From: Chitinophagaceae bacterium
GTDB taxonomy: Bacteria > Bacteroidota > Bacteroidia > Chitinophagales > Chitinophagaceae
Length of the DNA stretch: 32,939 bases
NCBI GenBank assembly: GCA_004173355.1
Contig: SEAD01000044.1
Coordinates: 1-32,939, forward strand
Reading direction: 5' to 3'
Part shown: positions 1 to 32,386 of the stretch, piece by piece
How positions within the stretch are numbered: the first letter of the stretch is position 1
How the letters are laid out: each line of letters starts with the position of its first letter
Notes under the pieces: model-generated
Database searches by the model: none
The model's input: the letters and a program-made list of their open reading frames with translations, nothing else
Told to the model about the DNA's origin: nothing
Made by a program: the position numbers and the translations under genes

Positions 1-1232
1 ATATAATAACCGGTTTTGGTCTGCTGTAAAGAACCGCCCGGGCGGTCAGCACCGCCATTAAACAACTGCACTTCCCGGTTGAGCCACAGCATCCCGTTCA
101 CAAATACGGTATTCATCATTCTGGGATCGCGGTTGGCATAAGGTGAGCCGGGATCATAGCCTGAAGCCGGATCAGTGATTGGCAGGCCATTCAGCATGGT
201 AAAGGAGTTCACGAGATTCTGGGTGGGGCTGGTAATACCGCTGCCCCCGGCAGATGTATAACCTACGGGTCCGTTGTTGGTCTCCACACTGGTACCGGCA
301 CCATCCTGTCTCCAGAAAATGGATTCCGTATTCGAGGCCACCGGTGCCCCCTGTGTGATAAACACATCCCGGAAGTCGGGCATCAGGCTATAGGAATTCA
401 GGTCGATTACTTCTTTGGCAGCATCTGCTGCAAGTTGCCAGCGTGCCGGATCGGCGTTGGTATAACCCGTCAGCGGATTGGCAGGATCGATATTTCCCCC
501 ATTGAATAAAGGGCTGGCTGCATAGAGAAGCACCCTGGCTTTCAGCGCCATTGCTGCTCCTTTTGTGACACGTCCATAGTGCGTGGCATTCATGGTTTCC
601 TTTGTACGGAGACTATCCCTGATATCATTGAGTTCATATACGATGTAGTTGATACAATCTTCAAAGCTCCGGCGTGGAAGCTCGATATTGTCATCGATCT
701 GGCGGATAGTATCACCGATGATCGGCACACCACCATAACGTTTTACCAGGTCAAAGTATAACATCGCCCGGAGGAAGCGTGCCTCCGACCGGTAGGCCGG
801 GCGGGCCGGGCGGCCATCCGGTAGCAGTTCCGCCAGTGGCACCCGGTTAATCAGGGTGGCAAAAATAGTCGCGCTGCGGATAGAATTATAGTTACGTGCC
901 CATACATTATCGCCGGTAGTATTGGTGGCCGAATAGGCCCCGGTGCGGAGGCGGTCGACCTCGGTGATATTTGCCCGCGATGAAATGGCATCATCCGTGG
1001 CAGCATCGAGATAGTTGCCATCAAGCCGGTTGTGCATGGTTGGCAACGCATCCGCATAGGTGGTCAGCAGGAATCGTAACGCATAGGTGCCTGCCGAATC
1101 CTTATCATCAAAGGCGAGCTCCAGCGGGATCTGTTGCCCCAGCGGCACTTCCTCGTACACCCTTTTGCAGGAAGGAAGGTAAATGGAAGCGGCAGATGCC
1201 AGGACCAGTACCAGTATTGAATGTTTTTTCAT
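1..1232 (-). CDS. SusD/RagB-family outer-membrane lipoprotein, partial (C-terminus beyond left edge)
   Basis: This is the glycan-binding partner of the SusC transporter just upstream. The frame stays open from an ATG at 1232 to the window edge, giving about 410 residues; the end is missing. The N-terminus is a lipoprotein signal with the lipid-attachment cysteine at residue 22 (YLPSC). Family hallmarks follow: SEARFLRAMLYFDLVKRYGGVP, then a KARVLLYAASPLF stretch, then ITDPASGYD and the late NRDPRM block. At the edge the sequence reads TGYY, which usually lies some distance before the SusD C-terminal helices. The gene starts 21 bases after the susC stop, the canonical susC-susD order. It is clearly paralogous to the SusD at 5942-7687, sharing the SEARFLRA, YGGVP-IGDT, AASPLFN and ITDPASGYD blocks. 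Family call is certain; the ligand is unknown, though the neighbouring rhamnosidase suggests a rhamnose-containing glycan. Confidence 0.93.
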   Translation of the reverse strand, partial: MKKHSILVLVLASAASIYLPSCKRVYEEVPLGQQIPLELAFDDKDSAGTYALRFLLTTYADALPTMHNRLDGNYLDAATDDAISSRANITEVDRLRTGAYSATNTTGDNVWARNYNSIRSATIFATLINRVPLAELLPDGRPARPAYRSEARFLRAMLYFDLVKRYGGVPIIGDTIRQIDDNIELPRRSFEDCINYIVYELNDIRDSLRTKETMNATHYGRVTKGAAMALKARVLLYAASPLFNGGNIDPANPLTGYTNADPARWQLAADAAKEVIDLNSYSLMPDFRDVFITQGAPVASNTESIFWRQDGAGTSVETNNGPVGYTSAGGSGITSPTQNLVNSFTMLNGLPITDPASGYDPGSPYANRDPRMMNTVFVNGMLWLNREVQLFNGGADRPGGSLQQTKTGYY

Positions 1233-1253: not shown

Positions 1254-4200
1254 TTAGATTTTAATGTTGATACCAAAGTTGACCACACGCTGTACCGGGT
1301 AGGACGGCATTGCCACCTCAGGATCCTGCACATCATAGGCTGCCCATGTGGCAAGGTTCTGTGCGGTAAAGAATAGTTTTACCCCGGATAATTTCAGCGA
1401 GCGGATCACCTGGTAAGGCAGGTTGTATTCAACACTCACATTTTTCAGGCGGAAATAGTTGCCATCATGAAGCAGTGCCGAGTTTGCCCCGAAACCGAGC
1501 GGGCTGTAGTTATAGGCATTGCCACCGGGTGTGAGCCTGGGGCTGGTTGCCGCTGTGCCGAGTTCAGGAATCCAGCGACCAAGTATCCGGTCATAAGCCT
1601 GCGAAAAACCATTGTTCTGTCCGATAAACCCGCGGTAGAGATAATCATCGCTCGTGTAGATGTCGCGGTTCGTTACACCCTGGATCAGTGCGCTCACGGC
1701 AAATCCCTTGAAGCTGAAGCCCATGTTGAGTCCGAATGTGATCAGTGGTTTCTGTTTGCCGATCGGTGCTACGTCGAACTGGTCAATCACCCCATCATTG
1801 TTGAGATCGCGGTATTTGTAATCGCCGACATGCAGTGTGTAACCGGTGATAGTGGGTGTATTCAGCAATTCCTCATTGGACTGGATAATACCATCGCTGA
1901 TGAGACCGAATGGTTGTCCCACCCGTTTGCCAGTGCGCTTGTTCCAGTCGTTGGGCTGGAACTGTTCGTCAATAAACAGCACACGTGACTGCTGGATCGA
2001 TGCATTGCCCGTAACAAAGAAATTGAAATCCCGGAAATGGCTCTGGTAGGTACCGGTGAATTCCCATCCGCTGAAGCGGTTGATCCCGATATTTTCAGGG
2101 ATGTACCTTGCGCCGATGAGTTCGATGCTTTTCCCACGCTCCTGCAGCATATCATAATAACGCTCGTAGTAATAATCAGCGGTGAACTGGATCTTGTTAT
2201 TGAACAGCGACAGATCTGCACCCGCATCAAATTTGTACGCCTTTTCCCAGGTTGCATTTACGTTGGCAAGCGTCTGGTTTCCGCTGCCGCCACCTTCTGC
2301 AAGCCCCCCGCCACCCGGGTAGCCATTGCCGATCGGGTAAGTACCGGCCACATCCTGGAAATAAGATCGATAGATATAATAACCGTAATTGTCAATATTA
2401 GCATTACCCGTGCGGCCAAAGGTGGCCCGGAGTTTCAGCAGATTGATCCAGCTGATATTGTCGGCAATGAAATTTTCCTTGGCTACATTCCATCCAAGTC
2501 CTCCTGCATAGAAGAAGCCAAACTGGTTGCCCGGTTTGTACCGGTTGTAACCACTGTAATTCAGTGCAGCTTCAGCCATGTACTTACCCTTGAAGTCGTA
2601 CGAGGCTTTTCCTGCTATATTGGTGAGTTTGCCCGGGATATCATAGTTGAGCAGTGTGGTTTTCTGGTCAAACAGTACCATTGACTGGATGCTGTGATCA
2701 CCGATCTTTTTGTCATAACCAAGGGAAAGCTGGGCAAAGGTGTAACGTGCCCATGATGTCGAGGTGAACATGTTGACCTGGTTGACCGGTGATCCGAACA
2801 GGTTATAGGAAGTATCACCGGAAGGTGCAACCACCATATTGTATACCGGTGCCACTTTGCTGCGGTTGATAAGTGAAGACGACTGCACCGATACGTTTCC
2901 GCGTCCGCGGAAATAAAGACCCGGAAGGAACCGGTCCAGTTTGTAGTTCAGGTCGAGGTTGGCCATCACATCATTGCTGTTGTCATTGATATAACCGGAG
3001 TTCTGCACCATCGACAGCAGGTTTGTGCGGTAGTTACTGTTGCCCCCATAAGAACCATTCGGGTTGACAGCGGGATATGCATTGTTAGGGGTGCGCAGCA
3101 GTGCCTGCATGATGGCGCTTGTCTGCGCGCCCGGCTGGTTTCCCTGCTGCAGGCGGCCAAACAATTGCAGTGCGATATTGAAACGATCGTTTACATCGAT
3201 ATCCACTTTGGAGTTGAGCAGGTAGCGCTTGAGTTCGAGGTTGGTATTGTAGGAATTGGCCGGGTCAGAACGGAACAGGCCATCCTGGTTGAGGTAACTG
3301 AGCGATACGATGTAGCGTGCCCTCGTGCCCCCTCCCTGCACGTTCAGGTTGTAACGTGACATCAGGGCATTATCCCTGAGGATGGTATTGTACCAGTTGA
3401 CATCCGGATGTCCCATCGGGTCGGATCCGGTGCGCCATGCTTCCAGGTCTTCGGCCGAGTAAGCTGCAGAGCGGCCTTCATTCAGGAGCGCTTCGTTTAC
3501 CAGGTAGGAGTGCTGGTATGCGGACAGCGGGTTCGGCATACCGAGTGCCGACTGCGAACCCACTTCAGCAGTAAATGACAGGTGTGGTGCGCCGAGTGTC
3601 GGGTTCTTCGTGGTGACAAGCAACACACCCCTGGAACTGTTTTGTCCCACGAGGATTGTAGCCAGTGCATCCTTGAGGATAGACACTGATTCGATATTCT
3701 GCGGGTCGATCGAATAGATTTCGCGCTGCACCCCATCAATGATTACAATAGGTGCCTGCCCATTGCTGCCGGCATGGCCACGCAGCTGCACAGCAAACTC
3801 GGTGTTATCACTGGGCCCCGAGCCGCTGTTGTTTTTTGGGATGTTGCCGACGAATATATCCACATCGATCTGCGGACTGGTGTTGGCTGAATAAAAACCG
3901 CTGTACTGGTTGATGTTCAGTCCCGCCAGCCTGCCCTGCAATGCAGAAAGATAAAGCGAAGAGGGCGTAGTGCGTAACTGGTTACCATATACGGTTGATA
4001 CGGAGCTGATAATATTGTCGGATGGTTTTGATTCATACAGGAGGTCAGTCCTGCGTTGTGTCTTGTTTACCAGTACGGCCGTATCGGCTCCGTTGGTGAC
4101 ACGCAGGTAAGTCTCGGTCATCCGCAGTGTAAATTCGGCGAACGAGCTGATCTTTTTTTCGCGCGTTTCGTACAGGGGATGGCTGAACAATACCGTTGCC

Positions 4201-4427
4201 GGGGCAGCAGTATTCAGTTCAAAAGAACCGTCGATGCCTGTGGTATCGCGCAGCGTTGTGCCTTTCACAGCAACAACCACTCCCGGCATCGGACGCGCAT
4301 AGTCGTCCAGCACGCGGCCATTGACACCAGCAGGCTTTGCGGCCGGATCCTGCGCCAGGAGGGCCTGGTTGGGGAGCACCAGCAGCAACGTGCAGGCGGT
4401 GAGTACTCTTAAGCAGTTATGGAACAT
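1254..4427 (-). CDS. SusC/RagA-family TonB-dependent outer-membrane transporter
   Basis: Energy-coupled outer-membrane importer for oligosaccharides, working with a SusD lid. The product is about 1057 residues. A signal peptide covers roughly residues 1-26 (TLLLVLPNQALLAQ). A carboxypeptidase-regulatory-like beta domain lies at about 35-100 (VNGRVLDDYARPMPGVVV). The TonB plug is at about 130-275, with VIIDGVQRE and the typical NIESVSILKDA and GVLLVTTKN stretch. The rest is the beta-barrel, ending in NFGINIKI. No extra N-terminal STN domain is present, so it is not an obvious sigma/anti-sigma signalling transducer. I chose the ATG at 4427 because it starts exactly at the signal peptide; the frame is also open from a GTG at 4496, but that would overlap the DUF4961 gene and mask the signal peptide. 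It sits 34 bases after DUF4961 and 21 bases before the partial susD. Confidence 0.95.
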   Translation of the reverse strand: MFHNCLRVLTACTLLLVLPNQALLAQDPAAKPAGVNGRVLDDYARPMPGVVVAVKGTTLRDTTGIDGSFELNTAAPATVLFSHPLYETREKKISSFAEFTLRMTETYLRVTNGADTAVLVNKTQRRTDLLYESKPSDNIISSVSTVYGNQLRTTPSSLYLSALQGRLAGLNINQYSGFYSANTSPQIDVDIFVGNIPKNNSGSGPSDNTEFAVQLRGHAGSNGQAPIVIIDGVQREIYSIDPQNIESVSILKDALATILVGQNSSRGVLLVTTKNPTLGAPHLSFTAEVGSQSALGMPNPLSAYQHSYLVNEALLNEGRSAAYSAEDLEAWRTGSDPMGHPDVNWYNTILRDNALMSRYNLNVQGGGTRARYIVSLSYLNQDGLFRSDPANSYNTNLELKRYLLNSKVDIDVNDRFNIALQLFGRLQQGNQPGAQTSAIMQALLRTPNNAYPAVNPNGSYGGNSNYRTNLLSMVQNSGYINDNSNDVMANLDLNYKLDRFLPGLYFRGRGNVSVQSSSLINRSKVAPVYNMVVAPSGDTSYNLFGSPVNQVNMFTSTSWARYTFAQLSLGYDKKIGDHSIQSMVLFDQKTTLLNYDIPGKLTNIAGKASYDFKGKYMAEAALNYSGYNRYKPGNQFGFFYAGGLGWNVAKENFIADNISWINLLKLRATFGRTGNANIDNYGYYIYRSYFQDVAGTYPIGNGYPGGGGLAEGGGSGNQTLANVNATWEKAYKFDAGADLSLFNNKIQFTADYYYERYYDMLQERGKSIELIGARYIPENIGINRFSGWEFTGTYQSHFRDFNFFVTGNASIQQSRVLFIDEQFQPNDWNKRTGKRVGQPFGLISDGIIQSNEELLNTPTITGYTLHVGDYKYRDLNNDGVIDQFDVAPIGKQKPLITFGLNMGFSFKGFAVSALIQGVTNRDIYTSDDYLYRGFIGQNNGFSQAYDRILGRWIPELGTAATSPRLTPGGNAYNYSPLGFGANSALLHDGNYFRLKNVSVEYNLPYQVIRSLKLSGVKLFFTAQNLATWAAYDVQDPEVAMPSYPVQRVVNFGINIKI

Positions 4428-4461
4428 ATAGTATGATTGTGGAAGTAAGTGGGTTGATGGT

Positions 4462-5448
4462 TTATTTACAGGAGAAAGTGAACAGGAACGGGTCACTCAG
4501 GCCACCGTACCCTACCCTGACGCTGCCATCGGCATTGGTAAAGAAATACTCCAGCCTCGCGATTGTCTGGGCTTCTGTCACCGAAAAGAACTGTCGCGGC
4601 CAGAGGTCTATCCGGAAGCGGCGCGCCCCGAGCGGGGTCGCCTTTGTTGCAGGTGAAGCCGTGCATACATCGATACGGTCACCGGTCGTTGTGATAGCAG
4701 TTGCACACAGGTAGATATCACCCACATTTTCCAGCGGATTGGCTGTCACACCGGCATCAAAGCCAAGGGTAATAATATCATTGTCCAGGGCAATCCGTGG
4801 CTCAACTGTTGAAAGTTGCGGATTGCAGAAGTCAATCAGGTCACCATCACCTTTTACTTCCAGGCAGGTAGGCGGGAATGTAGAACCGTAGTAGCGGGTA
4901 TCATCACCGATACCATCCGTGCTGTTGGCGATGGCATATCCCATTTTGAACAACAGGTTGTCCGGTGTGGTAGGTATGGTAATAAACACATCGGCAGTTG
5001 CCTCGTCATTGCCACCAAGGCTGTAAGATGCATTGGTGTAGTAGGCTATCCATTCCCAGTCGTCGATCAGGTTACCCCCGCCGCCGACCTTGGTAGCCAG
5101 GCGAGTTGACCAGTCAAGTCCGTCCCCGTTCGGAGCGGGTACACCGACTGCCACTGGCGCCATCGCCTGGACGCCGGTTGATTTGGTTGTGGTACAGCTC
5201 ATCCTTGCCTTTGTGCGTGCATTCCATGCCTTTGGCACCAGGATAGCAATCATGAGTCGTGATGACTGTGCCGAGTTGGAAGTGACTTTAACCTTCAGCG
5301 TGATGTTGAGATCTTCCCCGGCCACGATGCTTGCCGGCTGGTCAACAGTGGTAATAGAATGGCTGCAGCTGATGATCACAATAACCACTGCTGTGGCCAG
5401 TGCCCTTAAAAAGTAGTTGCGGAATTTCTTTGATTTGAGAAGTTTCAT
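4462..5448 (-). CDS. DUF4961-like SusCD-associated lipoprotein
   Basis: A 328-residue predicted lipoprotein: positively charged N-terminus, hydrophobic segment and lipid-attachment cysteine at residue 28 (VIIISC). The rest looks beta-rich, with repeated short strands such as AGEDLNITLKVKV and GDIYLCATAI, and several cysteines. This resembles the DUF4961 family, which is found beside SusC/SusD genes in Bacteroidota. That assignment is from memory of the family and has no motif-level proof. It lies 37 bases after the DUF5004 gene and 34 bases before susC, so it is almost certainly co-transcribed. The N-terminal part (residues about 35-75) looks like an immunoglobulin-type domain, so a surface glycan-binding or scaffold role is plausible. 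No catalytic motif is visible. Confidence 0.75.
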   Translation of the reverse strand: MKLLKSKKFRNYFLRALATAVVIVIISCSHSITTVDQPASIVAGEDLNITLKVKVTSNSAQSSRLMIAILVPKAWNARTKARMSCTTTKSTGVQAMAPVAVGVPAPNGDGLDWSTRLATKVGGGGNLIDDWEWIAYYTNASYSLGGNDEATADVFITIPTTPDNLLFKMGYAIANSTDGIGDDTRYYGSTFPPTCLEVKGDGDLIDFCNPQLSTVEPRIALDNDIITLGFDAGVTANPLENVGDIYLCATAITTTGDRIDVCTASPATKATPLGARRFRIDLWPRQFFSVTEAQTIARLEYFFTNADGSVRVGYGGLSDPFLFTFSCK

Positions 5449-5485: not shown

Positions 5486-5917
5486 TTATTCTTTTTCCAG
5501 GGTATAGGTGTATGAGTTCGATACACAACCCGGGCTGAACGAAATAATGATGTTACGGATCCCCTTGACCACGGGGTAATTCACCGATGATGTGGCCGAC
5601 ACGCCATTTTCAGCGCGGAAAAAAACCTTTGCCGGGTATTGCGGATCATCAAAACTCCAGTGCCCGTTCTTTGTTACGAGGAAAGGCACGGGGTTGGTCA
5701 GCGTATAACTGCTGTCGGAAAAAACAATCCGGAATTTTGAAAAGTCGAACCGGCTGGTGAGATCGGTCCCGTTACGGAGCGCCTGCACAATTTTCCAGGA
5801 GCCATCGATCGCCTTCTGCGGTTCCGCCGGCAGGCTGGTATTTTCCTTTTTGCAGGAATACAGCACAGCAGCAAGAACAAGCAGCAGTGCGGATATGAAA
5901 CATATTTTTTTCAGCAT
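5486..5917 (-). CDS. DUF5004-like small lipoprotein
   Basis: A 143-residue lipoprotein with the lipid-attachment cysteine at residue 22 (AAVLYSC). The mature part has IDGSWKIVQALRNGTDLT and GHWSFDDPQYP, a lipocalin-like small beta-barrel pattern (GxWxh near the start). This matches what I know of DUF5004, whose members are often encoded next to DUF4961 proteins in SusCD loci. The gene lies 24 bases after the susD stop and 37 bases before the DUF4961 start, consistent with one operon. No enzymatic residues are recognisable. An accessory binding lipoprotein is a guess. Confidence 0.72.
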   Translation of the reverse strand: MLKKICFISALLLVLAAVLYSCKKENTSLPAEPQKAIDGSWKIVQALRNGTDLTSRFDFSKFRIVFSDSSYTLTNPVPFLVTKNGHWSFDDPQYPAKVFFRAENGVSATSSVNYPVVKGIRNIIISFSPGCVSNSYTYTLEKE

Positions 5918-5941: not shown

Positions 5942-7687
5942 TTAATACAATGGGTTCTGGAGGAGTTCCGGTGATTTGCTGATCTCTTTCAGTGGTAATG
6001 GCCAGAGATACATCGCCCGGGTGAAATTGTGTTTCCTCACATTGAAAATGTTGTAGGTCTTGACAGCACCGTTGCGGCGGATTTCCATGCCATGCATCAT
6101 CTGGTCCTGTGTCTGTTCGGCGATCATCCAGCGCCGTACATCAAAAAAGCGGTGGCCTTCATACATCAGCTCAACCTGGCGTTCGCGCCGGATCGCATCA
6201 CGCATCTGTTCTTTTGACAGTCCTGCGGGAAGCTCATATGGACGCAATCCTGCACGGCGACGGATACTTTCAACGGCTGAGTAAACCGAAGCATCCGGGC
6301 CTGGCAGGAATTCGTTCTGCGCCTCGGCGTAGTTGAGGAGTATCTCGGCGTAGCGGATCAGCGGAAGCTGGCGTTTACTTTCGCCAAGGCTGTTATTGAT
6401 GATTTCCCTGTCAACCATTTTATAAATATAAAAGCCTGTTGGGGTGCCCCGGAACACCGCGTCACCACTTGCGGATGTTGGCGGTGTGGTGGCAAGGTTT
6501 GTATACAGCAGCACAGGGCTCGCTGCGTTGGTTCCGAAAATCGGACGTAAGGTGGAGTCGTGGATAATGGTATAGTCAAGGCGCGGATCCCTGTTGGAGT
6601 ACGGATTCTGCGCGTCATAACCCGAAGCAGGGTCAGTGATGGCCAGGCCGTTTGCCATACCGAAAGCATCCACTGTTTCCTGGTATGGGAATGGTCCCCC
6701 GCTGCCTCCCCGTGAAGGCACATCCCAGAAACTCTCGAGGTATTTGTTATTGTTCATCATCCGCGAAATGATTTGTTCGGATGTGAAACGCTCCATAAAC
6801 TGGCGCTGGAACCCGAAACCCTTCTCTGCCGGATGGGTGGTCGAATCGTAATAAAGGGAATGTGCATTCAGACCGATGACCGCTGCGGCCGCATCGGCTG
6901 CAAGTTTCCAGCGGTTGTTGTCCGCATCCGGATAGGCCACGATCGAAGCGAGTGCACCACCCCCGGAGGTACCGCCATTGTTAAACAGCGGACTGGCTGC
7001 AAACAGCAGCACACGGGATTTCAGTGCCAGGCAACCCGCGCGGCTGATCCGGCCAAACTGGGAGCCCGACTGGATATTGGGAAGGTTGGAGGCAGCAAAA
7101 TCACACTCGGCCAGGATATAGTTCACACATTCCGCATAGGTATTGCGGATTGCCGGAATGGTGTTTTCAGCTGTATAAACGGTGTCGCCGATCAGGGGTA
7201 CACCACCGTAGTGCTGGAGCATCATTGCATAATACCAGGCACGAAGGAAACGCGCTTCCGATTCGGTGGCCGTTTTCTGCGAAGCAGAGAATGGCATACG
7301 ATACAGGTTGCGCAGGAAGATGTTGACCGCGCGGATGTTCTTATATGGTATTCCCCAGGCATCGTCAGGTACTACGGTAGGATTTACCGAAGCGGTGGCA
7401 AACTGGATGAAACCATTGGTACTGGACGCATTCGGACCCTCTGCCTCATCGGATGAAGCATCAAGACCGGCCGCATAACCGCCACCGCCGAACCGGCGGG
7501 GATCCTGGGTGAAACCAATGTCTGAATAAATCTGGCTGAGGAAAGCAATCGAGTTGGTGCTATCCGCAAATACCGTCTGCTCGTTGAGGCTGGAAGTAAC
7601 GGTCTGGTCGAGAAAGCCATTCTTGTTGCAGGATACAATAGCAACAACCAGCAGCGTCGTCAGTGGCAGCAAAAGTAATTTTCGCAT
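5942..7687 (-). CDS. SusD/RagB-family outer-membrane lipoprotein, first gene of the operon
   Basis: Complete 581-residue SusD-like lipoprotein, with the lipobox cysteine at residue 20 (VAIVSC). N-terminal TPR-like region: SEARFLRAWYYAMMLQHYGGVP. Central region: KSRVLLFAASPLFNNGG. C-terminal RagB/SusD region: RYAEILLNYAEAQNE, then RRRAGLRPYELP and RRERQVELMYEGHRFFDVRRW, and a proline-rich end (YLWPLPLKEI). The length is normal for the family. It is unusual because no susC precedes it; the next upstream gene on this strand is the ROK kinase, 313 bases away. It is followed by DUF5004, DUF4961, susC and a second susD. Two LacI-like operators lie in the leader region (7703-7722 and 7925-7944), so this is probably the first gene of a repressed operon. 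Confidence 0.95.
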   Translation of the reverse strand: MRKLLLLPLTTLLVVAIVSCNKNGFLDQTVTSSLNEQTVFADSTNSIAFLSQIYSDIGFTQDPRRFGGGGYAAGLDASSDEAEGPNASSTNGFIQFATASVNPTVVPDDAWGIPYKNIRAVNIFLRNLYRMPFSASQKTATESEARFLRAWYYAMMLQHYGGVPLIGDTVYTAENTIPAIRNTYAECVNYILAECDFAASNLPNIQSGSQFGRISRAGCLALKSRVLLFAASPLFNNGGTSGGGALASIVAYPDADNNRWKLAADAAAAVIGLNAHSLYYDSTTHPAEKGFGFQRQFMERFTSEQIISRMMNNNKYLESFWDVPSRGGSGGPFPYQETVDAFGMANGLAITDPASGYDAQNPYSNRDPRLDYTIIHDSTLRPIFGTNAASPVLLYTNLATTPPTSASGDAVFRGTPTGFYIYKMVDREIINNSLGESKRQLPLIRYAEILLNYAEAQNEFLPGPDASVYSAVESIRRRAGLRPYELPAGLSKEQMRDAIRRERQVELMYEGHRFFDVRRWMIAEQTQDQMMHGMEIRRNGAVKTYNIFNVRKHNFTRAMYLWPLPLKEISKSPELLQNPLY

Positions 7688-7702: not shown

Positions 7703-7722
7703 ATAGTAAAACGTTTTAGCAA
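7703..7722 (-). promoter_or_regulatory. LacI-type operator A, upstream of susD operon
   Basis: Reads TTGCTAAAACGTTTTACTAT on the minus strand. The core TAAAACGTTTTA is a perfect 12-base palindrome centred on CG, the hallmark of LacI/GalR-family operators. It ends 16 bases before the susD start, so it probably lies in the 5' leader, where a bound repressor would block elongation. Confidence 0.65.
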
Positions 7723-7924: not shown

Positions 7925-7944
7925 TAAAAGAAACGATTTAGCAA
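7925..7944 (-). promoter_or_regulatory. LacI-type operator B (degenerate), upstream of susD operon
   Basis: Reads TTGCTAAATCGTTTCTTTTA on the minus strand. Ten of the first eleven bases match the motif of the other three sites, but the second half-site is weak. It lies 222 bases centre-to-centre from operator A. Confidence 0.5.
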
Positions 7945-8000: not shown

Positions 8001-8894
8001 CTATCCCTGTTTTTCCAGACCAGCCGTTTGCCTTGAAGCCATACCGGCGGCACCCGTGAGTGCGGCATTTTCACCGAGACTTGAAAGGCAATATTTTGCA
8101 CCCGCGGCAACACGGGCAAGATAATTATCGATATGCGTTACAAAAAATCCGGCAGCTTTTGCAATGTTTCCGCCGATCACGATGTTATTGTATCCATGCT
8201 CCCCGTATTGCCCTGCAATGAAGCCGCCGAGGTTTTCGCCAAACTCCCGGAACACGGTGGCCACGGTGTCATCCTCCCCGCGCACCGTGGTCAGTTCCTT
8301 CACGCCGCTGATTTTTTTTCCCGTCAGTTCCGCATAACGTGCAACGAACCACCGGGTAGACAGGTAATCCTCCGCGATGCCGTCACGGTACGGAGCGCAC
8401 CAGAGGTCTGCATCCACCACATCGCCTCCCGCCCTGAAAGCCGACCCCAGACCGGTGCCCAGCGTAATACCCATGATATTGTCCTGACCCCGTACAGCGC
8501 CACCAAGCACTTCCCCTTCCAGGAAGGCACAGGCATCATTCATAAAATGTATCAGTGCCGGGTCAATGGAAAGACGTGTAGCAAGTTCCTGTTTCAGTTC
8601 CAGTTTATAAAGGGAGCGGAATTTATCCTGGTCGCGGATCAGGCAGATCCCGTTTGGATAATCGAAAGGACCGGGCATGGCGATACCAACGGCGATGTCC
8701 TTGTGTCGAAGGCTGTGGAGACTGGAGGAAATGGCATCAGACCAGGTACCAAGGATTTCATCTGCGGTACCGCGACTGTTCAGGTCGATCCTGTTACCGG
8801 AACCCTGGATGGGTAATCCCTCTTCAATACTGACCAGCGATGTGGTGATATGCGATCCGCCAATATCAGCACCCAGGATGGGAGTCGTGTTCAT
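8001..8894 (-). CDS. ROK-family sugar kinase / ROK protein
   Basis: A 297-residue cytosolic protein of the ROK (repressor, ORF, kinase) family, probably an ATP-dependent sugar kinase. Phosphate-1 motif DIGGSH at residues 10-15; GIAMPGP at 70-76; the ND of the catalytic loop at 119-120 (Asp120 as likely base); adenosine/phosphate-2 motif LGTGLG at 145-150; IVIGGNIAKA near 238-247. There is no N-terminal helix-turn-helix, so it is not a NagC-type repressor. The usual zinc motif (CxCGxxGCxE) is absent: the corresponding stretch is LWCAPYRDGIAEDY, with one cysteine. The frame also opens with a TTG at 8900, but I prefer the ATG at 8894, which leads straight into the first strand. The operator in front of it ties it to the rhamnosidase. 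The sugar is unknown. Confidence 0.88.
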   Translation of the reverse strand: MNTTPILGADIGGSHITTSLVSIEEGLPIQGSGNRIDLNSRGTADEILGTWSDAISSSLHSLRHKDIAVGIAMPGPFDYPNGICLIRDQDKFRSLYKLELKQELATRLSIDPALIHFMNDACAFLEGEVLGGAVRGQDNIMGITLGTGLGSAFRAGGDVVDADLWCAPYRDGIAEDYLSTRWFVARYAELTGKKISGVKELTTVRGEDDTVATVFREFGENLGGFIAGQYGEHGYNNIVIGGNIAKAAGFFVTHIDNYLARVAAGAKYCLSSLGENAALTGAAGMASRQTAGLEKQG

Positions 8895-8938
8895 AAGCAA
8901 TCAAAAAGTTGTAGTGCGCCAAAACGCATGACAAAGTA

Positions 8939-8965
8939 CAAACTATTGTTTAATCGTTTTAGCAA
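8939..8965 (-). promoter_or_regulatory. LacI-type operator C with overlapping promoter, upstream of the ROK gene
   Basis: Bases 8946-8965 read TTGCTAAAACGATTAAACAA on the minus strand; 7 of 10 positions pair across the CG centre. It is followed directly by TAGTTTG (8939-8945), close to the Bacteroidota -7 element. The first TTG of the operator lies at the right place to act as the -33 element. The predicted transcript start is near 8932, about 40 bases before the ROK ATG. The site is also 81 bases before the divergent lgt gene. Confidence 0.62.
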
Positions 8966-9046
8966 TTCCCCCGTATTTTTATAATAATTTTTTAATCCCG
9001 CTGTAAGTCGACGGATTTTTGATTGTTTTGCCATAGCCGAATAACC

Positions 9047-10213
9047 ATGTTTCCAACCCTGCCACACCTCATTTATTACTTTACCGGTTTACGGGTCGCA
9101 CTGCCGGTGCAGACTTTTGGTGTTTTTGTTGCCCTCGCTTTCTGGTTGTCCTACCTGGCTTTCAAATCAGAATTCCGGCGGAAGGAACGACAGGGGCTGA
9201 TTCTTCCCTTCCGGGAAAAAAACAGGGGCAACCGCGCTGCATCCCTCCGGGAAGTCCTGTTGTACGCGGTTTGCGGCTTCCTGATCGGTTACAAGGCAGT
9301 TTATGCTTTTGCCGGGTACAGCCGGTTTGTGCAATACCCGGCGGACACCATTTTCTCCATGAAAGGAAGTATTACGGGCGGACTGGCCTGTGCACTGCTG
9401 GCGGGCCTTTATATCTATGCCAGCCGTCGCGCCCTGCAGGGCACGGGTTCCATGGAAAAAGAGATAGACGTTTATCCGCATGAACGGACCGATCGTTTAT
9501 TGCTCTGGTGTGCCAGCTTCGGGTTTGCAGGCAGCCTGTTATTCCCGAAACTCGAAAATCTCAGCGGGCTTTTCCGCGACCCGCTTGCGTTCCTGACAAC
9601 CTTTGAGGGACTTGCATTTTATGGCGGTTTCATATTTGGTGCCGCTATCTTCCTCTATATCACCACCCGCCGGATGGGAATACAACTTATTGACGCCATG
9701 GATGTGGGAAGCCCGGGTATGATGCTGGCTTATGGTGTCGGCCGGATGGGCTGCCACCTTTCAGGCGACGGAGACTGGGGCCTGGTCAACAACAATGAAA
9801 AGCCCGGGTGGCTTGGCTGGCTGCCTGACTGGGCATGGGCATTTAACTACCCGCACAATGCCGAAGGACGTGGGCTTACCATCGATGGATGTATCGGGGA
9901 TTATTGCACGGTACTACCCGACCCTGTTTATCCCACATCACTTTATGAATCGCTGCTTTGTATATTGCTGTTTGGTTTATTATGGTCGCTGCGTTACCGT
10001 TTACGCCGGCCCGGTCTGATGTTCTTCCTCTTTATCCTGCTCAACGGACTCGAACGGTTTTTCATGGAGTTTATCAAACTCAACAAGCTCACCTGCATCG
10101 GCAATACCTGCCTGAGCCAGGCACAGTATATTGCCCTGGTGTTTATTATTACGGGTATCGCGGGACTGGCATGGTTTGTCCTGAACCCGCGCCGGGGAAG
10201 GTTTACAGCCTGA
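9047..10213 (+). CDS. lgt: Prolipoprotein diacylglyceryl transferase, paralogue 1
   Basis: Inner-membrane enzyme that moves diacylglycerol from phosphatidylglycerol to the lipobox cysteine of prolipoproteins. The product is 388 residues with about seven hydrophobic segments. Landmarks: FYGGFIFG at 191-198, GRMGCHLSGDGDWG at 232-245 (the Lgt signature region), LPDWAW at 259-264, and NGLERFFMEFIK at 333-344 holding the late conserved arginine. ATG at 9047 is chosen over the TTG at 9023 because it gives the normal short N-terminus. It is the only plus-strand gene in the window and is flanked by the ROK and rhamnosidase genes. Its stop lies 6 bases from the convergent rhamnosidase stop. A second copy exists at 31208-32386, so this is an extra gene in a locus encoding at least four lipoproteins. 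The family is clear; activity is not proven. Confidence 0.9.
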   Translation: MFPTLPHLIYYFTGLRVALPVQTFGVFVALAFWLSYLAFKSEFRRKERQGLILPFREKNRGNRAASLREVLLYAVCGFLIGYKAVYAFAGYSRFVQYPADTIFSMKGSITGGLACALLAGLYIYASRRALQGTGSMEKEIDVYPHERTDRLLLWCASFGFAGSLLFPKLENLSGLFRDPLAFLTTFEGLAFYGGFIFGAAIFLYITTRRMGIQLIDAMDVGSPGMMLAYGVGRMGCHLSGDGDWGLVNNNEKPGWLGWLPDWAWAFNYPHNAEGRGLTIDGCIGDYCTVLPDPVYPTSLYESLLCILLFGLLWSLRYRLRRPGLMFFLFILLNGLERFFMEFIKLNKLTCIGNTCLSQAQYIALVFIITGIAGLAWFVLNPRRGRFTA

Positions 10214-10219
10214 CAACCA

Positions 10220-12661
10220 TCAGATCACCAGTTTGTTGATACCCGGCCTGAGTATCGTTTTCTTCCCCCTCCACAGCAGCGTGCCGGTGGTACCCGGAGG
10301 CAGCGTGACCGTTGCATGCAACTGTGCAGACAGGAGTTTGTAATCCACGCTGAGTGTGCCGTTCGGATGGCTGATCTCCCCTTTTGCTTCTTTCAGTAAA
10401 CCCAGTTTTGGTTCGATGAGTACCGACGCAAAACCAGGCGCGGCACTTTCAATGCCCAGTACCGTACGGAACAGTTCAATATTCGGACTGCTTCCCCATG
10501 CATGGCAATCGGACCGGGAAGTGTTTACATTCGGTTCCTCCGCCCAGGTGGTCAGGCCGGACCGGATATTCTCCCTCCATACATCCAGCCAGGTAAGGTA
10601 ATCGTTGCCCAGTCCCGCTTTCACGAGCGCCTGGTGTAAATAGTATTTGAAATAAATGGTACACGCGGTCAGTGATTTGTCCGACAGCATCTGTCCGGCA
10701 AGTTGTTTCGCTTCCTGCCCCCTGATCAGGCCGGTAAGGATCGCGAGTGAGTTGGCATGTTGTGAAAAATGGGTTTTGTCATCGGTATCGGCAAACATTT
10801 TCTTCTCTGCATTCCAGTAACGTTTACGGATCGTCTGTGCCAGCTGGTCAGCCTTGCCTTTGTACAATGCAGCATTGGCGGGCATTCCCATTTTTCCTTC
10901 CATTTCCGCCATCCACTGGTAAGCCATCAGCAGCTGCAGGTCGATGATGGATGAGCGGCCTTCAGCAGACCTTGGTGGCGATCCGACAAACCAGTCCTTC
11001 CCTCCTGCCCAGTCTACAAATGTCCAGTAAGGCGTATGGCGCAGCGATCCGTCATCGGACTGGTACCTGCTGAAAAAATCCAGCACCGATCTTGCGCCGA
11101 TGAGTTTGTCTTTTACAAAACCTGCATCCGGCCTGTACATCCAGTAGTCGTGCAACATCCCGATATACCATAGTGAAAAAGTGGAAATGACCTGCGCACT
11201 GCGTGTGGGATAACGGCTGTAGGTAACGCCTTCGGGTAATCGGGAATGGTCCATCAGTGTCAGTGCATTCCGCGCGAGGCGATCATCACCCGCATAAAAA
11301 TAAGAGACCAGTGCCTGGATCCGGGTGTCGCCGATGTATTGCAGCTGTTCGTAGTACGGACAGTCCATATAGGTCTCCGTCGCATTCAGCCTTGCCGTGC
11401 GCCAGCCAATATCCAGGATCTCCTGCAGGCTGTCACCCGCTCCTTCAAATTTTGCAGCGGGGCGGAAAGGAAAACCGGTAAATGTGCCATACAGATCATC
11501 AATGACCAGCGGTTCGGCCGCAGTACGCACATATAACCGGATATACCGGTAGGTGCGGTAATTCAGTGTGGTAAAGGATTGTCCGTCTTTCCCGTTTGAC
11601 AGGAGGCTGTCCGTGCGACCTACAAAGTCTTTCCCCTCCACTTCATTCCGGTTTCCTTTTTTCATACCACCCTCGCGGTTTTTATCATACAGCGATTCAG
11701 CATAACCCAGTGACAGGCCTGCACCTGTTCCCTTGCTGAAACTGATGGTTAGATATGCATTGGTCAGGTAATCCTGGTCGAGTAACAGGGTGACGGAACT
11801 GTTGGCCGGGATGGTCAGCGGCTGCCTGTGCAACGGGAAACCTTCGGGCACCGTGATCCCGCTGGCGATCCGGACGCGGTTGATCCGTTGTTCCACCATT
11901 TCCATCGCAGGGATAGCGGATGGCACCAGCATCCATCCAAATCCATCGGATGTGCCCTTACGCTTTCCATCAAGGATCGCATTTGCCTGGGGCCATTTGC
12001 TGTCGTCAGTTGCCGGATCCCACCATTTCATCACTGACTGGTTCATGTCCACCAGTTGTCCGGTGCTTGCCGCAAAGAAAAACCCGGGAATGGGCAGATG
12101 GCCTTTGTCACGGATACATTTCCAGGACTTGTTGCTGTTGAGCTGCTGCTCCTTTACGGTAGCTCCCTGCAGGATAAAACCTGTACGGAAACTGATCTGT
12201 GCTTCGGGTACTGAATTGGCTTCATTCCAGACTACTGCTGTGATATTATTTTTCCCTGCCACCAGCGAAGCGGCGAGATCGACGGTTTCATAATTCCAGT
12301 GGGTAAGGTCTCCCCGGGCCGGACCCAGCGACACCTGCCTGCCATTCACAAAAAGTTTGTAGCGGTTGTCTGCGGTCACATACACGGGAAATGAGGCAGG
12401 GCGTGTGTCGAGACTGATATCCTTCCGGAAATAATACACCCCGTAACCACGACCATCATCGTCGGCAGCTGCGATCCACTGGGCATTCCAGTTTGCTTCG
12501 CCCTGCGTCCGGTCGCCGGGTCCAGGCGCTGCCGCAGCAGTCTGCAGTGACGGATCAGCTGCACGGGTCTTTTTATAAACGTCGGATGGAGGTACAGACT
12601 GTCCGGAAGAAAATAGCGGAAGCTGTAAAAAACAGAACACAACAGGCAGCAGTGGTTTCAT
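10220..12661 (-). CDS. Secreted alpha-L-rhamnosidase, GH78 family
   Basis: Inverting glycoside hydrolase releasing terminal alpha-L-rhamnose from glycans or glycosides. The product is 813 residues with a signal peptide (residues 1-20, ending FSSGQ), so periplasmic or exported. A jelly-roll sugar-binding domain lies at about 55-145 (NAQWIAA, YKLFVNGRQVSLGPARGD). A second beta domain lies at about 260-400. The (alpha/alpha)6 catalytic barrel lies at about 405-735. Asp433, Glu438 and Asp445 in DCPYYEQLQYIGD have the same spacing (0, +5, +12) as the catalytic residues Asp567, Glu572 and Asp579 of Bacillus GH78 RhaB. The late general-base glutamate matches Glu708 in TTWAEEP, followed by SDCHAW (717-722). 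A C-terminal beta domain ends the protein. ATG at 12661. An operator-promoter lies 39 bases upstream. It converges with lgt. Confidence 0.92.
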   Translation of the reverse strand: MKPLLPVVFCFLQLPLFSSGQSVPPSDVYKKTRAADPSLQTAAAAPGPGDRTQGEANWNAQWIAAADDDGRGYGVYYFRKDISLDTRPASFPVYVTADNRYKLFVNGRQVSLGPARGDLTHWNYETVDLAASLVAGKNNITAVVWNEANSVPEAQISFRTGFILQGATVKEQQLNSNKSWKCIRDKGHLPIPGFFFAASTGQLVDMNQSVMKWWDPATDDSKWPQANAILDGKRKGTSDGFGWMLVPSAIPAMEMVEQRINRVRIASGITVPEGFPLHRQPLTIPANSSVTLLLDQDYLTNAYLTISFSKGTGAGLSLGYAESLYDKNREGGMKKGNRNEVEGKDFVGRTDSLLSNGKDGQSFTTLNYRTYRYIRLYVRTAAEPLVIDDLYGTFTGFPFRPAAKFEGAGDSLQEILDIGWRTARLNATETYMDCPYYEQLQYIGDTRIQALVSYFYAGDDRLARNALTLMDHSRLPEGVTYSRYPTRSAQVISTFSLWYIGMLHDYWMYRPDAGFVKDKLIGARSVLDFFSRYQSDDGSLRHTPYWTFVDWAGGKDWFVGSPPRSAEGRSSIIDLQLLMAYQWMAEMEGKMGMPANAALYKGKADQLAQTIRKRYWNAEKKMFADTDDKTHFSQHANSLAILTGLIRGQEAKQLAGQMLSDKSLTACTIYFKYYLHQALVKAGLGNDYLTWLDVWRENIRSGLTTWAEEPNVNTSRSDCHAWGSSPNIELFRTVLGIESAAPGFASVLIEPKLGLLKEAKGEISHPNGTLSVDYKLLSAQLHATVTLPPGTTGTLLWRGKKTILRPGINKLVI

Positions 12662-12699: not shown

Positions 12700-12726
12700 C
12701 AATATACAACTAATTCGTTTTAGCAA
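12700..12726 (-). promoter_or_regulatory. LacI-type operator D with overlapping promoter, upstream of the rhamnosidase gene
   Basis: Bases 12707-12726 read TTGCTAAAACGAATTAGTTG on the minus strand, sharing TTGCTAAAACG with sites A and C. TATATTG (12700-12706) follows at once, giving the same geometry as site C: TTG, 17 bases, then TAnnTTG. The expected transcript start is near 12693, about 30 bases before the rhamnosidase ATG. Confidence 0.62.
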
Positions 12727-12812: not shown

Positions 12813-12820
12813 GAAAAATA

Positions 12821-13254
12821 TTACAGGCCTGTAAGCCGGATTCTGTCGTGGACTATCATTTATCTGTCCGTCAGGTTACCCTGCCGGATCAATCTGCCTA
12901 CCCTCCATCATCGGGCGAGTAACCCTCAGGCGATGGTATATGTGGCATTTCAGCATGCAAGGTTTACCCGCGATCTATGTTACCATAAAAAGCCGTGAGC
13001 TCTTACCTCACGTTTTCACCTTTGCTTTGTCCACCGGAGCTTCAGCAGAAGCGGGCCTGGGACCGGATGTATTCCGGTCGCTGCCCTCCCGCGCTGAAGC
13101 CCCGGCCGATAAAGTAGCTATTCTCTGTGGCACTGTCTGTTCCGGGGTCCCGTATTGCTACGGTTCCGGACCCGGCTCTTCACCGGTGCAATACTCTGTG
13201 CTGTCCGGACTTTCCTCCCTCCCTTGCGGAAGTGCGATAGTCCGGCCTGTAATA
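12821..13254 (-). ncRNA. rnpB: RNase P RNA, bacterial class A
   Basis: Catalytic RNA of ribonuclease P, which cuts the 5' leader of pre-tRNA. On the minus strand the conserved GAGGAAAGTCCGGAC (13203-13217) lies near the 5' end. The matching 3' element ACAGAATCCGGCTTA (12832-12846) lies near the 3' end; together they form the catalytic core. GGGTAAACC and GTGAAAACGTGAGG loops lie in between, as expected. The ends pair: TATTACAGGCC at the 5' end with GGCCTGTAATA at the 3' end, an 11-base-pair P1 helix that sets the bounds. The exact ends may be a few bases inside the stated limits. The 5' end lies only about 14 bases after the stop of the upstream Smr gene, so the promoter must lie inside that gene or the RNA is cut from a joint transcript. 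The length, about 430 nt, is normal. Confidence 0.95.
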
Positions 13255-31207: not shown

Positions 31208-32386
31208 CTACTTGAGTTTCACTCCGGCGGGCACAACCTGCTTTGGGTTCTTCTTTTTCAGCACAAACCAGAGTACCAGACCGGCCAGGAACAGCAGGGC
31301 CGAGATGATTTCCGCCTGGGTAGCCGTGATGCCCAGGAAAACCTGCTTTTCGTTGACCCGGATTTTTTCGATAAAAAAGCGTTCGAGTCCGTTCAGCATC
31401 AGGTAGAGCGCAAACAGCCGCCCGGGAATCCGGATCTTTTTGCGCACAGCCCAGAGGATCAGGAACAGGATAAAACAACCCACGATTTCATAAAGCGGGG
31501 TTGGCCAGTGACCGACCCTCAATTCGTTGCAGTACTTGCCAACACAACCTGCAATCGGTTCGCCCGATTCATTTACGTTGTGCGGGTAAGTGTAGGACCA
31601 TGCCCAGTCAGGTAACCAGCTGTAGGGGTTTGGCCGGGGGTTTTCAACACCCCAGTCCCCGTCACCCGATACCTGGCAGCCGATACGGCCGAGACTATAG
31701 GCGAGCATCATGGTGGTGGCCAGTGAATCATTGAGGTGCCAGAAGCCAATTTTATGTTTGCGGGCATACACCCAGATAGCAATTGCTGCGCAGATCAGCC
31801 CACCGTAAAAGGTAAGACCGGCCGGCGATAACAGGAAGTCAGAGGGTTTCTGGAGAAACTTGCTCCAGTTTTCGAATATATCAAACATTTTTGCACCCAG
31901 CAGGCCAAACACCAGCGCAATGATGGTGATCTCCCCTACCCGGTCATGTGGCCAGATCCGGATGGTCCGTTTTTCCGGCGCCGGCAGTTTCTGTTTGTTT
32001 TTTTCATACCATTTCAGACCGGCAAATACAAGTCCTACCAGTATCCCCGCCGGCCAGCTGCCGATAGTGGAAAAGATAAAAGCCTGCGGGTCTTCCGTGG
32101 CTGAACTGTCCATCACAAACAGCGCGATGATTTTATATCCGAGCAGGAAACCTAGCAGGAAATTGAGCAGGATCTCGCCGGCAGTTGCGGGATGCCCGAC
32201 AGTGACCTGGATCTCTGTTGGCTGAAGCAAACCTTCCTTACCCTTGCGACGGAGTTCCGCAGCAAGTACCAGCGCACAGACGATAAATGCTATGGCAACA
32301 AAGAATCCGAATGAATTGACAAAACGCAGGAAGGACCACTCTACACCAAACAGGTCTTTAAAGGCAAAGTAAAGGTTGGGATACAT
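31208..32386 (-). CDS. lgt: Prolipoprotein diacylglyceryl transferase, paralogue 2
   Basis: Same enzyme family as the gene at 9047-10213 and probably the housekeeping copy, since it sits among conserved genes. The product is 392 residues with about seven transmembrane segments. Landmarks: LTFYGGLICA at 191-200, SLGRIGCQVSGDGDWG at 231-246, LPDWAW at 258-263, YPHN at 267-270, GCVGKYC at 280-286, PTPLYE at 295-300 and NGLERFFIEKIRVN at 332-345. ATG at 32386 is preferred over a TTG at 32422, which lies before the likely transcript start. In both paralogues the classic Lgt signature GNF-N is replaced by GC(H/Q)(L/V)S. The gene is 108 bases after the bacilliredoxin gene and its terminator. Confidence 0.93.
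   Translation of the reverse strand: MYPNLYFAFKDLFGVEWSFLRFVNSFGFFVAIAFIVCALVLAAELRRKGKEGLLQPTEIQVTVGHPATAGEILLNFLLGFLLGYKIIALFVMDSSATEDPQAFIFSTIGSWPAGILVGLVFAGLKWYEKNKQKLPAPEKRTIRIWPHDRVGEITIIALVFGLLGAKMFDIFENWSKFLQKPSDFLLSPAGLTFYGGLICAAIAIWVYARKHKIGFWHLNDSLATTMMLAYSLGRIGCQVSGDGDWGVENPRPNPYSWLPDWAWSYTYPHNVNESGEPIAGCVGKYCNELRVGHWPTPLYEIVGCFILFLILWAVRKKIRIPGRLFALYLMLNGLERFFIEKIRVNEKQVFLGITATQAEIISALLFLAGLVLWFVLKKKNPKQVVPAGVKLK

Follow-up and report, generated by a model that had tools for sequence, protein, structure and literature searches.

Glycan locus and extra lgt gene

The window analysed here is the whole stretch of 32,939 nucleotides from a Chitinophagaceae bacterium. It carries two lgt genes, and one of them, LGT2, lies inside a glycan locus. 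SusCD polysaccharide-utilisation loci (PULs) of Bacteroidota combine SusC, SusD, lipoproteins and glycosidases with conserved upstream motifs. The genes concerned are as follows.

3..1232, minus strand: second SusD-like protein, open at the contig end (lipobox by eye; family from position and resemblance)
1254..4496, minus strand: SusC-like TonB-dependent transporter (Pfam plug and CarbopepD_reg_2 above cut-off, barrel domain just below cut-off)
4462..5448, minus strand: DUF4961 lipoprotein, marker of the locus type (Pfam PF16328, 327 bits; lipobox)
5486..5917, minus strand: DUF5004 lipoprotein (Pfam PF16395; lipobox)
5942..7687, minus strand: SusD-like lipoprotein, first gene of the core operon (Pfam SusD_RagB; lipobox)
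8001..8900, minus strand: ROK-family protein, divergent from LGT2 (Pfam ROK)
9047..10213, plus strand: LGT2, extra lgt, 388 aa (Pfam LGT; key residues retained; same position in a second species of the genus)
10220..12661, minus strand: rhamnosidase-like 6-hairpin glycosidase, convergent with LGT2 (Pfam Bac_rhamnosid6H)
31208..32386, minus strand: LGT1, housekeeping lgt, 392 aa, outside the locus and given for comparison (groups with housekeeping copies; rpoD-like and BrxA-like neighbours)

The SusC-SusD pair and the glycosidase genes that a SusCD locus requires are both present according to Pfam. A first-pass annotation had described LGT2 as the only plus-strand gene, placed between ROK and rhamnosidase genes and close to at least four lipoproteins. 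Indeed, all other annotated genes and an RNase P RNA lie on the minus strand, and Pfam agrees with the two flanking genes. Four lipoproteins are found nearby: SusD, DUF5004 and DUF4961 pass a simple lipobox rule, and the fourth, at the contig end, was recognised by eye. The RNase P RNA (RF00010, 223 bits) is located at 12816-13253 on the minus strand, directly past the rhamnosidase-side end of the locus.

LGT2 is intact and scores 126.2 bits against Pfam LGT (PF01790, cut-off 24.9). Members of this family have seven membrane helices and move diacylglyceryl from phosphatidylglycerol onto the cysteine of a lipobox. The existence of a second lgt at 31208-32386, also noted in the first pass, holds: when searched, the window's assembly, with 372 contigs, 5.36 Mb and 99.5% completeness, yielded exactly two lgt genes, LGT1 and LGT2, a third row being a second piece of LGT2. 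The two proteins share 37% identity. LGT1 is the housekeeping copy and LGT2 the extra one: in a 71-row tree LGT1 clusters with the housekeeping copies of the family, and its gene is neighboured by an rpoD-like sigma-factor gene and a BrxA-like gene, likewise in the second species of the genus (G001; contig SDZZ01000201.1, Chitinophagaceae bacterium isolate PMG_180) and in G020. A BrxA-like gene is also found near the housekeeping lgt of G010. Several relatives (G032, G027, G035, G014, G036 and others) harbor a shorter Lgt-like class of about 250-290 aa, and G036 has seven Lgt-family matches.

Among the residues given as important for Escherichia coli Lgt in an excerpt of PMC13251419, R143, E243, R239, D129 and G104 are kept in LGT2 (R233, E341, R337, D219 and G193), as is G145 (G235), while H103, N146, E151 and Y235 correspond to Tyr, Cys, Asp and Asn (Y192, C236, D241 and N333). 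LGT1 has the same residue at all of these positions. At the position of R246, LGT2 has Lys344 whereas the housekeeping rows have Arg. The phosphate-binding arginines, R143 and R239 in E. coli, are kept in 27/27 extra rows. Cys236 and Asp241 are found in 45/45 housekeeping rows and Tyr192 in 41/45; in one group of extra copies (clade C, below) Leu replaces Tyr192 in 7/10 rows. Because Y/W/F at H103 and C at N146 are reported in other Lgts (same excerpt of PMC13251419), Tyr and Cys at these positions are not decisive against Lgt membership. Among solved structures, E. coli Lgt (PDB 5azb, 5azc) is the sole sequence match (E 2e-5). It is also the best, though weak, Foldseek match of an AlphaFold model of LGT2 (probability 0.98, E 0.041, TM 0.29/0.37), a weak model whose pLDDT of 68.9 is too low for active-site geometry. 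The Pfam score and the residues shared with LGT1 bear out the first-pass view that the family landmarks are retained, and LGT2 is presumably a working Lgt paralog.

A 14-nt operator-like motif recurs around the locus.

7709..7722, plus strand: operator-like motif, first of two upstream of susD (sequence kept in G001)
7931..7944, plus strand: operator-like motif, second of two upstream of susD (sequence kept in G001)
8937..8966, no strand assigned: 30-nt block in the ROK-LGT2 gap, identical in the two species, containing the motif at 8952-8965 (operator C)
12713..12726, plus strand: operator-like motif upstream of the rhamnosidase-like gene (its G001 counterpart is beside the Smr gene)

In the window, AWWCGWTTTAGCAA occurs at four sites (7709, 7931, 8952 and 12713) against 0.00 expected from 100 shuffles; this figure is optimistic, as the pattern was derived from the same sites, and the independent test is conservation in G001. 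The window's own genome contains six sites of AWWCGWTTTAGCAA, against one for the reversed pattern: two upstream of susD, one in the ROK-LGT2 gap, one ahead of the rhamnosidase-like gene, and a further two preceding other SusC and SusD loci. In G001 the motif is found seven times (control, one). Three of these sites are at the LGT2 locus with identical letters, one is beside the Smr gene as in the window, one precedes a SusC, and two are on a contig matching one other locus. The 8937-8966 block is identical between the two species while its flanks differ. Thus the adjacency of LGT2 to operator C, pointed out in the first pass, involves a motif that is conserved and more frequent than chance. 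The motif is also present in the lgt-susD gap of another genus (G168, L090); the gaps of L093-L095 contain a related form only, and in most other lgt-susD gaps none was seen. It also stands before two other SusC/SusD loci of the window's genome and their G001 counterparts (L205, L206, L207, L208), a pattern suggestive of a small glycan regulon. The appearance of the site makes a LacI-type regulator our guess. The predicted operator in the block may act on LGT2, ROK or both; being located between two divergent genes, it may serve ROK alone.

Gene order in G001 is the same: rhamnosidase, LGT2 on the opposite strand, ROK, SusD, DUF5004, DUF4961 and SusC. The two species share 72% protein identity in LGT2, 86% in LGT1, 81% in SusD and 70% in DUF4961, and dN/dS for LGT2 comes to about 0.07 at saturated dS. 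LGT2 is under purifying selection; it has been retained and is evolving at roughly the pace of its locus.

Extra lgt genes beside glycan loci in the family

LGT2 was used to search 394 genomes of the family, with matches listed down to about 157 bits. From the matches listed, plus L052/L053, G510 and G387, 27 extra copies (the window's LGT2 excluded) and 40 housekeeping copies were picked by hand. SusC or SusD is found near 21 of the 27 extra copies but near none of the 40 housekeeping copies, as picked among the matches listed and with housekeeping stretches of about 19.5 kb each. The six extra copies with neither gene in the stretch read are L035, which shares a contig with DUF4961 at a distance of about 23 kb, L103, which lies amid GH92, GDSL and acetylesterase-like genes, L088, which is close to a contig end, and L038, L089 and L184. 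Two relatives of LGT2 by score, L050 and L051, have no SusC/SusD nearby; they were left out of the 27 as their status as second copies is not established, and L050 adjoins clade A in the tree.

In separate lineages the extra gene sits immediately upstream of susD and points away from it: clade A (L090-L096), pair B (L105, L106) and part of clade C (L052, L053, L107). In the window and G001, the ROK gene lies between lgt and susD. In other members of clade C (L100-L104, L035), lgt follows an acetylesterase-like gene on the same strand, and in G510 (L183) it follows SusC. The constant lipoproteins of loci with lgt are SusD, DUF4961 and DUF5004, with ordinary lipoboxes. Enzymes of the related loci, namely GH92, GH38, GH106, rhamnosidase-like, GDSL and acetylesterase-like enzymes and a sulfatase, suggest an acetylated glycan with mannose and rhamnose.

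In the family, the extra lgt recurs in one rare kind of PUL, SusD-DUF5004-DUF4961-SusC. Of the 394 family genomes, 35 encode DUF4961, each a single time. Five genomes in a set of 395 from the phylum (the window's own included) have it, one of the five by a weak match. It is rare and single in each carrier, though such genomes can hold many SusC/SusD loci. In the literature searched, with most subscription papers outside it, no paper on DUF4961 was found, and its function seems unpublished there; for DUF5004 there was one paper. The 35 family loci together with those of G510, G514 and G783 give 38; a weak, partial match in G674, whose single lgt is on another contig, was left out. In 20 of the 38, DUF4961 and an lgt are no more than 25 kb apart (G000, G001, G008, G082, G088, G089, G095, G142, G168, G172, G173, G185, G231, G310, G339, G364, G380, G408, G510 and G514). 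None is found within 25 kb in the other 18 (G003, G019, G079, G129, G139, G147, G209, G215, G248, G257, G290, G292, G297, G329, G331, G381, G397 and G783), although the absence is not firm for G147 and G215, where the contigs are short at this locus. In G079, G215 and G381 an extra lgt is located away from the DUF4961 locus; in G079 it has a different SusC-SusD pair for a neighbour, at most about 12 kb away.

Conversely, 25 genomes have an extra long-class lgt among the matches listed, and 21 of them carry DUF4961, against 35 of 394 overall; the exceptions are G010, G218, G377 (66% complete) and G387. By genus, it is present in 12 of the 14 genera with an extra lgt and in 17 of 101 genera in all. 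The Fisher p values for this co-occurrence, 7e-22 by genome and 4e-10 by genus, are rough figures rather than strict probabilities, since the genomes are related and any extra lgt outside the matches listed (below about 157 bits) counts as absent.

The extra genes do not share a single origin. In the 71-row Lgt tree, clade A comprises the copies of the window, G001, G215, G168, G089, G231, G339, G310, G408, G364, G173, G095 and G185, clade C is nested among the housekeeping Lgts of the family, and B is a long-branched pair from G142 and G380. Grouping of the 26 extra rows in one clade is rejected (dlnL 127, p-AU 7.7e-10), as is one clade of the 20 PUL Lgt rows. A and C are separate, and the exact count of origins is unsure because of long branches. 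Outside the tree, the lgt near DUF4961 in G514, of another family, resembles by eye another Lgt class (SHG motif). The pairing of lgt with the glycan locus arose more than once, a hint that clusters of this kind come equipped with a lipid-anchoring enzyme.

Lnt and LspA in related loci

Some related loci carry an lnt as well. An Lnt match is found within 3 kb of the extra lgt in G231, G339, G310, G408, G364, G082 and G008, and in these seven genomes it is the only Lnt match; Pfam LNT_N and CN_hydrolase were confirmed on one of the seven. Within 27 kb, Lnt accompanies 13 of the 38 DUF4961 loci, the seven and those of G019, G089, G168, G172, G209 and G329. Thus lgt and/or lnt is nearby in 23 of the 38 and neither in 15; with 18 lacking lgt and 15 lacking both nearby, the DUF4961 locus type can do without these enzymes.

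One deep clade unites the 13 PUL Lnts with four others and is separate from 19 ordinary rows (two being the same gene). Of these four, one lies near glycan genes and SusC and another beside a DUF5005-like gene; the remaining two have neither for a neighbour. The members of this subfamily are mostly in or near DUF4961 loci (L091-L095, L100, L035, L178-L181, L185, L186, and additionally L230-L233). The Glu, Lys and Cys columns, which we take to be the Lnt triad, are kept in 17/17 PUL-type and 19/19 ordinary rows. A gene for a DUF5005-like or type-IX-tailed secreted protein adjoins the PUL-type Lnt in 12 of the 17, as judged by a one-sequence profile (L091-L095, L035, L154, L178-L180, L230, L231); Pfam on three such genes gave DUF5005 and the tail in two and the tail alone in one.

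In the window's own locus, no Lnt is found near LGT2. The sole Lnt of its genome, on contig C112, groups with the ordinary ones, so an Lnt belonging to the locus can be dismissed, and G001 likewise has one ordinary Lnt away from the locus. A duplicated LspA completing a lipidation set was not found in 24/24 genomes, each of which has a single LspA.

Possible role of the locus-borne Lgt

On balance, LGT2 is probably a diacylglyceryl transferase dedicated to its locus, made together with it and anchoring its lipoproteins. When the locus is switched on, LGT2 would be made and would attach the diacylglyceryl anchor to the two SusD-like proteins, DUF4961 and DUF5004, while LGT1 would serve the remaining lipoproteins of the cell. 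We infer the activity of LGT2, its induction with the locus, its preference for the locus lipoproteins and the benefit of a dedicated enzyme from gene content, placement and conservation. As the reason for such an enzyme we favour control by the locus over the lipid anchor of its lipoproteins, which it would secure or tailor, because related loci recruit Lgt and Lnt but not LspA. Going further, the repeatedly recruited Lgts and the separate Lnt subfamily might set the anchors of the locus's surface lipoproteins apart from those on the rest of the cell's lipoproteins; such locus-own chemistry is a tentative proposal.

Alternatively, LGT2 could share the specificity of LGT1 and do no more than raise Lgt capacity at times of high lipoprotein output from the locus. 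Its placement, motif and residues are equally compatible with this, yet we regard it as unlikely. Recognisable lipoproteins number 4.0 per stretch with lgt (16 stretches) and 4.3 without (14 stretches), which is no difference, though these are gene counts and not protein amounts; L154, L158, L164, L169-L171 and others were left out of the comparison. Under a simple rule the lipobox letters are also the same in the two sets, so that neither more lipoproteins nor a changed lipobox distinguishes loci with lgt. This equality argues against plain capacity and against an altered acceptor motif, while the recruitment of Lgt and Lnt without LspA argues for something about the lipid. Moreover, LspA would be required in equal amount, but it is never duplicated in the 24 genomes, and a general recruitment of lgt by SusC/SusD loci is unsupported in the 40 housekeeping stretches and the 394 genomes. 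Of the locus-induced, lipidation-boosting Lgt proposed in the first pass, the association with the locus and the shared conserved motif fit, while the boost is unsupported. A new function, in which the PUL Lgts (and the PUL-type Lnt) use another acceptor or lipid, for example a secreted locus enzyme or a glycolipid, is less probable still. The deep clade of the PUL-type Lnt, its DUF5005-like or type-IX-tailed neighbour and the Leu at the H103 position in most of clade C would suit it, but LGT2 differs from LGT1 in the residues considered only by Lys at R246, and the constant partners of lgt loci are ordinary lipoproteins with ordinary lipoboxes.

The first-pass annotation had also offered an exchange by rearrangement unrelated to the locus, which random positions in relatives would have favoured. 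The family survey, along the lines that annotation had proposed, shows 21 of the 27 extra copies near SusC/SusD instead. With its placement conserved in the genus and the same association in separate Lgt lineages, LGT2 is not a random insertion or an unrelated exchange. The related idea that an lgt copy landed by the locus by chance and was carried along without a role in it could draw on L038, L088, L089 and L184, which are not near SusC/SusD. It is disfavoured and seems very improbable, because the association recurs in distinct lineages and families, lgt and susD are arranged divergently, LGT2 is under purifying selection, and extra copies co-occur with DUF4961. Finally, a precedent for an inhibitor-insensitive spare enzyme is the extra lspA in the myxovirescin cluster, lspA copies in a natural-product cluster being described in an excerpt of PMC8689077. 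For LGT2 such a role is hardly credible: no biosynthetic genes for such a compound are found among the annotated locus genes, where many neighbours are unannotated, and its partners are glycan-uptake genes.

As for known systems, LGT2 is best read as analogous to lgt2 of the lgt2-lit2 operon, a precedent for a condition-linked second Lgt. According to an excerpt of PMC8275575 (citing Armbruster 2019), this is a copper-induced copper-resistance operon of Listeria monocytogenes and Enterococcus. Both are second lgt genes in a condition-linked accessory locus, the condition of the LGT2 locus being our inference. In lgt2-lit2, lgt is paired with an enzyme leading to N-acylated lipoproteins, as some related glycan loci pair it with lnt. 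They differ in that lgt2-lit2 is a copper-resistance operon on a mobile element of Gram-positives with Lit as the partner, whereas here a glycan-uptake locus of Bacteroidota is concerned, with Lnt as the partner in relatives and no N-acylating partner in the window's locus. Mycobacterium smegmatis MSMEG_5408 is, like LGT2, a second Lgt beside a major one. MSMEG_5408 and its partner differ at Y26 and N146, whereas at N146 LGT2 and LGT1 have the same residue, and the excerpt concerned mentions no glycan locus, unlike the setting of LGT2 (PMC13251419).

Ordinary SusCD loci share the SusC-SusD pair, lipoproteins, glycosidases and upstream motifs with the window's locus, and the lgt inside it (in relatives also lnt) is the difference. 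No paper on lgt or lnt within such loci was found in the literature searched, which holds few subscription papers. A second, condition-linked Lgt is already known, and its repeated recruitment into a glycan locus appears to be new. Lgt is usually regarded as a single all-purpose enzyme, in many cases essential, and as a target for drugs. Should glycan loci have an Lgt and an Lnt to themselves, the lipid anchor could vary with locus and nutrient, with consequences for how SusD-type proteins are displayed at the surface and for the design of inhibitors, and whether the lipid anchors of individual lipoproteins are tailored would become directly testable. The DUF4961 loci that have lgt and lnt and those that lack them provide a natural comparison set.
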